NCBI RefSeq assembly: GCF_016428645.1
Contig: NZ_JAELXW010000055.1
Coordinates: 1 to 43,490, forward strand
Direction of reading: 5' to 3'
DNA from: Glycomyces salinus
GTDB taxonomy: Bacteria > Actinomycetota > Actinomycetes > Mycobacteriales > Micromonosporaceae
DNA length: 43,490 nucleotides
Below the pieces are notes generated by a model. It searched no databases. It saw only the letters and a list, made by a program, of their open reading frames with translations, and was not told the DNA's origin. A program made the position numbers and the translations under genes. This document shows, piece after piece, positions 9,799-14,175 of this stretch (positions within the stretch are counted from its first letter, which is position 1; every line of letters begins with the position of its first letter).

Positions 9799-9896
9799 CA
9801 GCGTTCACTCTTCTTTGGGGCGACGCGTCGCCACGCGGAGTCTTTCGAGTTTCCTCGAGCGAAGCGAGCCGGCGGGCGGGGCGACGGGTGTGGAGC
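9799..9896 (-). repeat. Arg-operon spacer copy A (between argF and argR)
   Basis: These 98 nt are homologous over their whole length to the argC-argJ spacer at 14079-14175. On the + strand both contain GCGTT(C/T)ACTC, then GGGGCGA, a short hairpin, GAGT(C/T)TTTCGAGTTTCC, GAGCGAAGCGAGCCGGC and a GGGCGGGG-like run ending at the stop codon. Here the hairpin is CGCGT-CGCC-ACGCG. In copy B it is GCCGT-CAGGT-ACGGC, so two base pairs are swapped while pairing is kept. It may be an RNA element or a dispersed extragenic repeat. Confidence 0.75.
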
Positions 9897-10832
9897 TCAC
9901 CGTCGGTCGCCTCCGACGAGCCAGGCCAGCAGTGCCTTCTGGGCGTGGAGGCGGTTCTCGGCCTGGTCGAACACTCGCGAGTGCGGACCGTCCATGACCT
10001 CGTCGGTTATCTCCTCGCCGCGGTGGGCCGGCAGGCAGTGCAGGACGATCGCGTCGTCGGCGGCGTGGCTGAGCAGGTCGGTGCTGAGCTGGTAGGGGGC
10101 CAGTTCGCCCAGGCGCTGCTCGCGGTCCTCCATGCCCATGGAGACCCAGGAGTCGGTGGAGACGACGTCGGCTCCGGTCACGGCCTCGACCGGGTCGGCG
10201 GTGACGGTGACCGAGCCGCCGGTGGTCCGGTTGATCTCGGCGGCCCTGTCGAGCACTTCCCGGGCCGGCTGGTATCCGGCGGGGGCGCCGATGCGGACGT
10301 GCATTCCGGCCGTCGAGCAGGCGATCACGGTGGAGTTGCCCATGTTGAACGCGGCGTCGCCGACGTAGGCGATGGCGGTGCCCTTGAGCGGTTTGTGTTC
10401 GGCGACGGTCATCAGGTCGGCCAGGAGCTGGCAGGGGTGCCAGCCGTCGGTGAGGGCGTTGACGACGGGGACGGAGGCGTGCTGGGCCAGTTCGGTGATG
10501 CGCGCGTCGGCGAAGGTGCGGATGACGATCGCGTCGACGTAGCGGGAGAGGACCCGGGCGGTGTCGGCGATGGTCTCGCCGCGGCCGAGCTGGGTGGACT
10601 GGGAGTCGATGACCACGGGGTTCCCGCCGAGCTCGGCGATGCCGACCTGGAAGGACAGGCGGGTGCGAGTCGAGGGTTTCTCGAATATCACCGCGACCGA
10701 TCGAGGAGTGCCGTTGTGGGCGAGGCTGTGGCGGTTCCAGCCGGGCCGCTTCACCGCCGCGGCGAACTCGAGCAGTTCCCGCTGCTCTTCGGGAGTGAGG
10801 TCGTCGTCTTTCAAGAAGTGTCTTGTGGTCAC
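9897..10832 (-). CDS. argF: Ornithine carbamoyltransferase
   Basis: This enzyme condenses ornithine with carbamoyl phosphate to give citrulline. The 311-residue protein has the carbamoyl-phosphate loop STRTR near residue 55, the [11 protein letters not shown] block, and the ornithine-binding [10 protein letters not shown] near residue 265. The GTG start ([12 protein letters not shown]) overlaps the argD stop as GTGA. The family usually begins at this point. Downstream lies the spacer copy at 9799-9896, then argR. Confidence 0.97.
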
Positions 10833-12031
10833 GGTCGTGCTCCCGGGGCGGGCATGATCTCGTCGAGCGCGGCGATGAGTTTGTCGCAGAACTCGTCGAG
10901 TTCGGTCTGAGTGATGGTCAGGGGCGGGGCGATGCGGATCGTGTCGGGCCTGGGCGCGTTGGCGAGCACGCCGTTCCCTATGAGCTCGGCGACGACGTCG
11001 GCGGCGACCGGTTCTGTCAGGGCGATGCCGCGCCACAGCGCCTTGCCGCGCACCTCGGCGACCCGCGGATCGCCGGCGAGCCGGGCGTCGAGGTGTTCGC
11101 CGAGGGCCAGCACGTTGTCGAAGAGGTGATCGCGTTCGATGGTGTCGATGACGGCCAGGCTGGCGGCGCAGGCGATCGGGTTGCCGCCGAAGGTGGAGCC
11201 GTGGGTGCCCGGAGTGAGCGCCGCGGCCCACGGCCCGGCGGCGATGACGGCGCCTATGGGGACGCCGCCGCCCATGCCCTTGGCGATGGTGACCGCGTCG
11301 GGGGTGATCCCCGCGGCGTGGTGGGCGAACCAGGCGCCGGTCCGGCCGAAGCCGGACTGGATCTCGTCGATCACCAGGGCCGCGCCGCGTTCGGCGGTGC
11401 ACTGCCGGGCGGCGAGGAGGTATTCGACGGCGGCGGGCACGACCCCGGCCTCGCCTTGGGCCGGTTCGAGGAAGACCGCGGCGGTCTCGTCGTCGACGGC
11501 GGCCTTGAGCGCGTCGGCGTCGCCGTAGGGCACGAACCGGACGTCGCGGCCCAGCGGCTCGAACGGCTCGCGGATCGCGGCCTTGCCGGTGATGGACAGG
11601 GACCCGAGCGTTCTGCCGTGGAAGCCGTTGTCGGCGGCGACGATCTTGGTCTTCCCGGAGTCCTTGCCCGCCAGCAGGGCGAGCTTGAGTGCGGCCTCGT
11701 TGGCCTCGGTGCCGGAGTTGCAGAAGAAGACCCGGCCGTCGATCCGGGACAGCTCCAGCAGCTTCTCGGCGAGTTCGACCTCCTTCTCGTGCAGGTAGAG
11801 GTTGGAGGTGTGGGCCAGGCGGGCGGCCTGGACGCCTATGGCCTGGACCAGCGCCGGGTGGTTGTGCCCGAGGCTGGAGACGGCGATGCCGCCGATCATG
11901 TCCAGGAAGGTGTCGCCGTCGACGTCGGTGACGTGGCGGCCCTCGCCTTCGCTGATGGCCACGGGCGGCAGCCCGTAGTTGCCCATGAGCGCGTTCTGGA
12001 AGCGCCGCTTGAGTTCGTCCGAATAGGTCAC
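10829..12031 (-). CDS. argD: Acetylornithine aminotransferase
   Basis: This PLP-dependent class III aminotransferase converts N-acetylglutamate semialdehyde to N-acetylornithine with glutamate as donor. The 400-residue product shows [15 protein letters not shown], the cofactor aspartate block [13 protein letters not shown], and the Schiff-base lysine in [15 protein letters not shown] near residue 250. GTG start, 4-nt GTGA overlaps on both sides (argB before, argF after). Confidence 0.97.
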
Positions 12032-12927
12032 TGGTCCTCCATGACCATGGTGCCGACGCCGTCGGAGGTGAAGATCTCCAGCAGGGTCGAGTGGGGAACG
12101 CGCCCGTCGATGACGTGCGCTTGGGGGACGCCGCCCTTGACCGCCCGGAGGCAGGCCTCCATCTTGGGGACCATACCGGACTGGAGGCCGGGCAGCAGCT
12201 CGGCGAGCTGGGCGGTGGTGACCTGCCGCAGCAGCGAGCCCCGGTCGGGCCAGTCGGCGTAGAGCCCTTCGACGTCGGTGAGGATGACGAGCTTCTGCGC
12301 GCGGAGCGCCTCGGCGAGCGCGGCGGCGGCGGTGTCGGCGTTGAGGTTGTAGAGCACGCCTTCGTGGTCGAGCGCGACGGTGGAGACCACCGGTATGCGT
12401 CCGGCGTCGATGATGTCGTCGATCGCGGCGGTGTTGACGCTGGCGACGTCGCCGACCCGGCCCACGTCGACCCGCTCGCCGTCCACGTCGGCCCAGCGGC
12501 GCTTGGCGGTGAACAGCTGCGCGTCCTCGCCGCTCATGCCGACCGCGTGCGGGCCGTGGTTGTTGATCAGGCCGACCAGCTCGCGGCCGACCTGGCCGAC
12601 CAGGACCATGCGGACCACGTCGGCGGCCTCGGGGGTGGTCACGCGCAGCCCGCCCCGGAACTCCGATTCGATGTCGAGCTTGGCGAGCATGGCCGAGATC
12701 TGGGGGCCGCCGCCGTGGACGACGACGGGTTTGATGCCCACTTGGCGCAGGAACACCATGTCGGCGGCGAAGGCGTTCTGGAGTTCGGGGTCGATCATGG
12801 CGTTGCCGCCGTATTTGACCACGACGACGTGGCCGGCGAAGCGCTGCAGCCACGGCAGTGCCTCGATGAGCGTCTCGGCCTTGCCGAGCGCGGCCTTCAG
12901 GTGCGGTGCCAGTCCGTCAATGCTCAT
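12028..12927 (-). CDS. argB: Acetylglutamate kinase
   Basis: This enzyme phosphorylates N-acetylglutamate. The 299-residue amino-acid kinase fold is evident from [11 protein letters not shown], the glycine-rich [13 protein letters not shown] and the C-terminal [20 protein letters not shown]. In this family it is usually the arginine-feedback-inhibited step; the C-terminal region here has the length of inhibitable forms, but sensitivity cannot be read from the sequence. The ATG overlaps the argJ stop as ATGA. Confidence 0.97.
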
Positions 12928-14078
12928 GTGCTGTAGGCCGAATTCTCGTGAACGTAGTCGTGGGAGAGGTCGTTGGTCCAGACCGTGGCCGAGGCGGCCC
13001 CGTTGTGCAGGTCGATGTCGATCTGGACGGCCCGGCCCTTGAGGTCGACGAGGTCGCGCGGCTCGCCGGCGGCGCCGGATTCGCAGATCCGCACGCCGTT
13101 GACGGCGACGTCGACCTGGTCGGCGTCGAAAGGCGCCTTGGAGACGCCCACGGCGGCGAGGATGCGGCCCCAGTTGGGGTCGCTGCCGAACATGGCGGTC
13201 TTGACCAGGTTGTCGCGGGCGACGCAGCGGGCGACCTCGACGGCGTCGTCTTCAGTCTGCGCCCCCGAGACGGTGATCGCGATGTCTTTGGTCGATCCTT
13301 CGGCGTCGCCGAGCAGCTGCTTGGCCAGGTCGGTGCACAGCTCGGTCAGCGCGGTGGTGAATTCGTCGGCATCGGCCCGGACCCCGGAGGCGCCCGAGGA
13401 CAGGAGCAGGACGGTGTCGTTGGTCGACATCGAGCCGTCGGAGTCGAGCCTGTCGAAGGAGTACCGGCAGGCGGTGCCGAGCGCGGTGTCGGCCGGTTCG
13501 CGGTCGACGACCGCGTCGGTGGTGAGCACGACGAGCATCGTGGCCAGGCCGGGGGCGAGCATGCCGGCGCCCTTGGCGATCCCGCCGACCGTCCAGCCGG
13601 CCGGGCTGGTGCGCGCGGCGTTCTTCGCGACGGAGTCGGTGGTCATGATCGCTCCGGCGGCGGCTTCGCCGCCGGCCTCGGAGAGGGCCTTGGCGGCGGC
13701 GTCGACGCCGGGCAGGAGCTTGCCCATGGGGAGGCGCTCGCCGATCAGGCCGGTGGAGCACACGGCGATCTCGGCGGCGCCGCAGCCGAGGACGGCGGCG
13801 GTCTTCTCGGCGGTGGCGTGGGTGTCCTGGAAGCCTTCGGGGCCGGTGCAGGCGTTGGCGCCGCCGGAGTTGAGGATGACGGCCTTGAGTCGCCCGTAGG
13901 TGATGACCTGCTCGGTCCATTTGACCGGTGCGGCCTTGACGCGGTTGCCGGTGAAGCGCCCGGCGGCCACCTGCTCGGGGCCGTCGTTGACGACCAGCGC
14001 GAGGTCGGGTTTGCCGGATTCTTTGAGTCCGGCGGTGACGCCGGAGGCCCGGAAGCCCTTCGGAGTTGTGATGGTCAT
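12924..14078 (-). CDS. argJ: Bifunctional ornithine acetyltransferase / N-acetylglutamate synthase
   Basis: ArgJ recycles the acetyl group from acetylornithine to glutamate, and bifunctional forms also acetylate glutamate from acetyl-CoA. The 384-residue precursor self-cleaves in this family before the Thr of [13 protein letters not shown] (Thr at about 179). Other conserved blocks are [16 protein letters not shown] and KGAGMLAPG. Presence of ArgJ means the cyclic acetyl pathway is used. A GGAG site sits 7 nt before the ATG, inside spacer copy B. The gene is separated from argC by that spacer and overlaps argB by 4 nt. Confidence 0.96.
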
Positions 14079-14175
14079 GCGTTTACTCCGGTTCGGGGCG
14101 AGCCGTCAGGTACGGCGAGTTTTTCGAGTTTCCGAGCGAAGCGAGCCGGCTGGGTGGGGCGCCGGGTGCGGGAAC
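14079..14175 (-). repeat. Arg-operon spacer copy B (between argC and argJ)
   Basis: These 97 nt are homologous to 9799-9896. The hairpin GCCGT-CAGGT-ACGGC sits at the equivalent position, flanked by the same GGCGA and GAGT...TTTCGAG. The sequence contains TTTCGAGTTTCCGAGCGAAG and GCGAGCCGGC. In transcript sense it starts at the argC stop and ends at the argJ start, supplying the argJ ribosome site. The two copies occupy the only non-overlapping junctions of the operon. Confidence 0.75.

Follow-up and report, generated by a model that had tools for sequence, protein, structure and literature searches.

The 43,490-nt stretch of Glycomyces salinus DNA analyzed here (contig NZ_JAELXW010000055.1, positions 1 to 43,490; the window hereafter) carries an argCJBDFRH operon on its minus strand, with gene identities that agree with Pfam. 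Four of the junctions in the operon are 4-nt stop/start overlaps that read from the sequence as free of any insert: argR/argH (ATGA, nt 9262–9265), argD/argF (GTGA, nt 10829–10832), argB/argD (GTGA, nt 12028–12031) and argJ/argB (ATGA, nt 12924–12927). The remaining two are the only non-overlapping junctions, and each is filled by a spacer. Spacer 1 (nt 9799–9896, 98 nt) lies between the argF stop codon at 9897–9899 and the argR start at 9798, and spacer 2 (nt 14079–14175, 97 nt) between the argC stop codon at 14176–14178 and the argJ start at 14078. The two can be aligned over their full length from stop to start with 80% identity, and their mutual match (E = 3.5e-15) is beyond chance, bearing out the homology proposed in the preliminary description of this DNA. 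Searching the window with Rfam at gathering scores returned one tRNA only and no curated family for the spacers.

Sequence and alignment identify both spacers as copies of one small element on the minus strand. The 5′ box occupies nt 9868–9894 in the argF/argR copy and nt 14145–14172 in the argC/argJ copy. It is followed by a middle module, here called module C, at nt 9817–9857 (GAAACTCGAAAGACTC plus a 5-bp stem) and nt 14095–14136 (GAAACTCGAAAAACTC plus a 5-bp stem). The stem of the argF/argR copy (nt 9824–9837) pairs CGCGT (9833–9837) with ACGCG (9824–9828), and that of the argC/argJ copy (nt 14102–14116) pairs GCCGT (14112–14116) with ACGGC (14102–14106); the hairpin arms are thus present where they had been described. 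The 3′ box (nt 9799–9818 and 14079–14100) ends in GAAGAGTGAACGCTG directly against the argR ATG and in CCGGAGTAAACGC directly against the argJ ATG, and these ends resemble ribosome-binding sites and may act as such. A mini-open reading frame (mini-ORF) is predicted through each copy. The one at nt 9805–9900 has 31 codons; its GTG overlaps the argF stop (GTGA), and 6 nt separate the end of its own stop from the argR ATG. The other, at nt 14075–14179, has 34 codons, with its GTG overlapping the argC stop (GTGA) and its TGA overlapping the argJ start (ATGA).

A dispersed element family in Glycomyces

A search with one spacer against the window's own genome (G000 in our sample of one genome per species) found 23 places at E ≤ 1, of which the stronger are clearly related and the weakest are probably chance. 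A covariance model was built from seven of the own-genome copies. At E ≤ 0.1 it gave at least 121 matches, spread over 20 of 22 Glycomyces genomes, with 17 of the matches in G000; the copy numbers are lower bounds because only 150 candidates per genome were scored in the genus search. At E ≤ 0.001 the model matched 20 of the 22 genus genomes and none of 178 other genomes of the family, and among 296 genomes of the class the window's own genome alone was matched; weak matches are lost under the stricter filters of the family and class runs. Over the genome_contigs collection (84,980 species according to its description), an exact two-box pattern found 22 stretches, all from Glycomyces. An exact pattern had no match in viral contigs, and one 67-base blastn query had none among plasmids and phages. 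So far, the element family has been found in Glycomyces only. A looser 22-base pattern allowing 3 mismatches was rejected as too noisy outside the genus, since 146 of 150 family genomes were matched and reversed-pattern controls gave similar numbers there. Among the literature matches listed (e.g. the best 15 of 1,311 and the best 12 of 286), none concerns the element or Glycomyces repeats, which is weak evidence of absence.

For the statistics below, 120 rows were used from 128 listed matches. They represent 119 distinct places, L103 and L187 being one place counted twice. Excluded were four copies from the interior of the L006 array, the central one of three copies in L222, L209 (the place of L107), L158 (the place of L226) and L157, a real composite with a lower score. 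Weak matches that are probably chance, such as L254 in coding sequence, were kept in the counts.

Pattern searches and alignments show that the copies share their ends, CCCRCACCCGTCGCCCCRCCCGCCGGC in the 5′ box and CYCCCCRAACCGGAGTRAACGC(TG) in the 3′ box, which enclose interchangeable middles in an element of about 45–100 nt, sometimes longer. Besides a plain TCGCTTCGCTCG and a hairpin of the GCCGCAAGCGGC type, the middle can be the window's GAAACTCGAAA-plus-stem module or a longer form. Rough expressions assigned 47 of the 120 copies to the TCGCTTCGCTCG-like type, 30 to the hairpin type and 3 to module C, with the remainder unclassified. The window copies are composites, in which a second dispersed repeat (GAAACTCGAAANACTC with the 5-bp stem) comes after TCGCTTCGCTCG. 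This second repeat occurs alone as well, and was found away from the element at L260, L284, L286 and L287; at G000:C79:116513-116632 (L286, L260) the GAAACTCGAAA-plus-stem module appears in two tandem 79-bp units that lack both boxes of the element. The longer form, as judged by eye, has an extra hairpin-like GCGC...GCGC before the 3′ part in L111, L186, L202, L207, L258 and the argF/argR junction of G011 (L146).

That both window copies have the same composite middle could be explained by a local event, in which one arg spacer recombined onto the other junction. However, this composite is also found in G085, at argF/argR, and in G152, at an unrelated location (L261, L259), and the argC/argJ junctions of G148 and G154 hold copies of the plain type, which makes local duplication very improbable.

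Tandem copies also occur. One array among the places found by the spacer search, G000:C209:12627-13071 (L006:1503-1947), comprises 5.7 copies of a 78-bp element unit, a multiple of three, in the manner of a variable number tandem repeat; additional tandem copies were seen as well.

Some copies lie inside genes. An amine oxidoreductase protein (Pfam), which we take to be HemG-like, carries an in-frame insert in G151 and G000, that is, in 2 of 22 genomes, and the G000 gene is split over two contig ends. Of the other 20 genomes, 18 show a short loop at this site and G099 a somewhat longer one; G155 was read in part. In the CoaBC flavoprotein, G145 and G108 each have a copy in frame, and the copy of G151 is diverged; the linker of this protein was readable in 6 of 22 genomes, and 13 genomes matched as two pieces that skip the insert. 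Pfam matches place further copies in genes for glutamyl-tRNA reductase, ThiG and a glycosyltransferase.

The difference between the two window stems had been taken as compensatory change under selection for RNA structure. Among 13 genus copies of module C, 95.4% of the cells in the 5-bp stem are paired, and 12 two-sided changes were counted, against 4.8 in shuffles and 0–1 in slid controls, so the compensatory changes are real, with the qualification that related copies in this count are not independent. The 13 copies are those at E ≤ 1e-6 among 29 rows; L264–L267 look by eye like coding sequence. Two other measures did not rise above the shuffles: the pairs with a two-sided change (3 against 2.1; 77 of 500 shuffles) and the further pair types (4 against 3.4; 205 of 500 shuffles). 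In the other hairpin type, 92.8% of 430 cells are paired and 35 are two-sided over 112 distinct rows, in an alignment fitted to that structure. Since paired cells and two-sided changes are found in both stem types, pairing is kept, at the level of DNA or RNA. This part of the proposal stands, and a stable fold of the whole spacer does not go with it: with z = 0.09 and 0.24, the window spacers fold no better than their own shuffles, and the minimum-energy structure of the argF/argR spacer does not contain its stem. Four other copies gave z values of −3.43 (L006, clearly stable), −1.84, −0.78 and 1.40.

Placement at stop/start junctions

The copies show a preference in where they sit. Over the 120 rows, a DTGA (IUPAC code) ends 0–3 nt ahead of the element in 40 copies, against 2.4 expected, and an ATG ends in the same interval in 40 copies, against 3.5 expected. 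By strand calls made from third-position GC and not from annotation, the downstream gene has the same strand as the element in 99 rows, the opposite strand in 12, and an unclear one in 9. A GGAGTRAACGC-type end is found in 66 copies, and in 56 a start codon comes after it. Of those 56, 45 have a DTG no more than 8 nt upstream, and the mini-ORF opened by that DTG stops between −6 and +11 nt of the downstream start in 40 of the 45, with all three frames used.

These numbers bear on the dispersed repeat that the preliminary description had named as the alternative to its own proposal. In its neutral form, the element would be a repeat resembling repetitive extragenic palindromes (REP) or miniature inverted-repeat transposable elements (MITEs), with stems that have a role only at the DNA level, in the spread of the repeat, and the placement at overlaps would reflect the loss of harmful insertions. 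The scattered and modular family, its tandem arrays and in-frame gene copies, the kept stem pairing and the minority that opposes the downstream gene all fit such a repeat. The named alternative is right in that the repeat is dispersed, but its copies are not unrelated to operons: they favor stop/start overlaps, show a sense bias, and in about half of cases carry a ribosome-binding-like end ahead of a start. The 56 copies with a GGAGTRAACGC-type end joined to a start, together with the excess of DTGA, require either that insertion is targeted or that working translation is under strong selection, and we consider a purely neutral repeat rather unlikely.

Comparison of orthologous junctions, made in 21 genus genomes with an ArgJ match and 21 with an ArgR match, reveals both filled and empty sites. 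The argC/argJ junction is a bare GTGA/ATGA overlap in 17 of 21 genomes, and is filled in G000, G148 and G154, with a degenerate copy in G155. In 12 of 21 genomes the argF/argR junction is bare or nearly so, to within a few bases. It is filled in seven, namely G000, G145, G132, G139, G117 (degenerate), and G011 and G085 (composite), and may hold a remnant in two, G150 and G124. Close sisters can differ, as G154 is filled at argC/argJ and G108 is empty. A tblastn search with the flanks assigned 11 of the 119 distinct places to arg junctions. Besides argC/argJ and argF/argR, they include argJ/argB in G011 (L248) and positions near argD/argF in G049 (L095), G151 (L109) and G154 (L103); owing to these extra copies, four of the six arg junctions are occupied somewhere in the genus.

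This frequent occupation of arg operons at four different junctions, and the covariation in both the window's module stem and the other hairpin type, speak for the preliminary proposal that an RNA structure acts in cis on the arginine genes, by control, processing or coupling. Yet the same element occupies many other junctions and the interior of genes, most relatives lack it at argC/argJ and at argF/argR, the window copies have ordinary whole-spacer folds, and the stem module can be found without the element. Control specific to the arg operon is therefore improbable.

A proposed translationally transparent insertion

We favor, with a probability of roughly 0.65, the explanation that both arg spacers are copies of a small Glycomyces repeat, which is gained and lost often at DTGA overlaps and is made transparent to translation by its mini-ORF and its ribosome-binding end. 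The element would enter an operon, often at a DTGA stop/start overlap and mostly in the sense of the mRNA, by a transposition-like movement. The upstream gene would retain its own stop after insertion, and the DTG just upstream would open a mini-ORF of about 20–35 codons running through the element. The 3′ end of the GGAGTRAACGC type could then supply the downstream gene with a ribosome-binding site and a start. If ribosomes finishing the mini-ORF restart on the downstream gene, the operon would survive the insertion, and we infer from this layout that the element probably lets both flanking genes still be translated.

Several results weigh against this explanation. DTGA within 0–3 nt upstream is absent in 80 of the 120 copies, the 3′ end with a start codon is absent in 64, and 12 copies oppose the downstream gene, which makes the junction rule no more than a preference. 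Open frames number 312 of 321, compared with 305.9 ± 3.0 in shuffles; the frames are mostly what composition gives, and selection on them is weak. The ends are not inverted repeats (5.50 of 14 matches between the first and last 14 bases of 66 copies, against 5.44 when shuffled), and no search aimed at a transposase or partner element was made. A target duplication beyond DTG was not significant, with positions 4 and 5 equalled in 188 and 207 of 2000 shuffles; because the end bases beyond DTG match no better than shuffled pairs, a longer duplication is unsupported. Finally, at least seven changes of occupancy at argF/argR and at least two at argC/argJ (G155 left out) speak in favor of the explanation, but the tree of 21 genomes on which they were counted was built from two genes of one operon, has 8 of 18 inner branches well supported, and does not distinguish gain from loss.

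Two further features were seen elsewhere in the window. Two adjacent minus-strand reading frames at nt 37222–39162, about 75% alike with a spacing of 897 nt, look like a tandem gene duplication, and nt 34947–35027 hold 2.2 copies of a 36-nt unit in tandem.

Comparison with known small repeats

Small dispersed non-autonomous repeats such as Correia, ERIC/RU-1 and YPAL/RU-2, some with open frames fused to genes, are treated in PMC2229807, which lists two of these three with terminal inverted repeats and TA ends. The Glycomyces element is likewise small and dispersed, but it has neither terminal inverted repeats nor TA ends, and it favors the start/stop overlap. The same source describes Rickettsia palindromic elements (RPE) as long stem-loops of 105–146 bp with terminal inverted repeats, which also occur in frame within conserved protein genes (PMC2229807). 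The in-frame copies in the amine oxidoreductase, CoaBC, glutamyl-tRNA reductase, ThiG and glycosyltransferase genes resemble this behavior. In contrast to RPE, the 66 Glycomyces copies compared do not end in inverted repeats, and gene junctions are favored.

The closest parallel lies with the mycobacterial interspersed repetitive units (MIRUs). MIRUs are regarded as mycobacterial, and no mechanism of their movement is known to have been established. DTGA is said to have been recognized as their target by Supply et al. in 1997. The Glycomyces element is a short repeat at many chromosomal sites, prefers the stop/start junctions of co-directional genes, has an internal reading frame that overlaps or abuts the flanking genes in most copies with a near upstream start, and forms tandem arrays. 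MIRUs are described as 40–100-bp repeats scattered over the chromosome, tandem at some places and seemingly mobile, whose insertion at start codons couples the repeat's reading frame to the gene there (PMC12548453, PMC2734929); they are widely used in tuberculosis strain typing (PMC2734929). The present element differs in belonging to another genus, and its model matched the window's genome alone among the 296 genomes of the class; exchangeable middles and copies within genes are seen here. It is best read as a likely Glycomyces counterpart of the MIRUs with exchangeable middles; the comparison covered copy number, placement, internal reading frame and tandem arrays, and membership in the MIRUs is not claimed.

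A bolder version is possible, though we hold it as doubtful: the machinery of a mobile element would recognize start/stop overlaps themselves, and the element, transparent to translation, would supply its own ribosome-binding end, close each reading frame near the next start and exchange its middles. Operons would stay intact as it spread through them, and the MIRU lifestyle would have been invented independently a second time. A MIRU look-alike outside the mycobacteria, for which both filled and empty orthologous sites are available, would offer a clean system for studying how such repeats move, and the same system could address whether mini-ORF coupling allows a repeat to enter an operon harmlessly.

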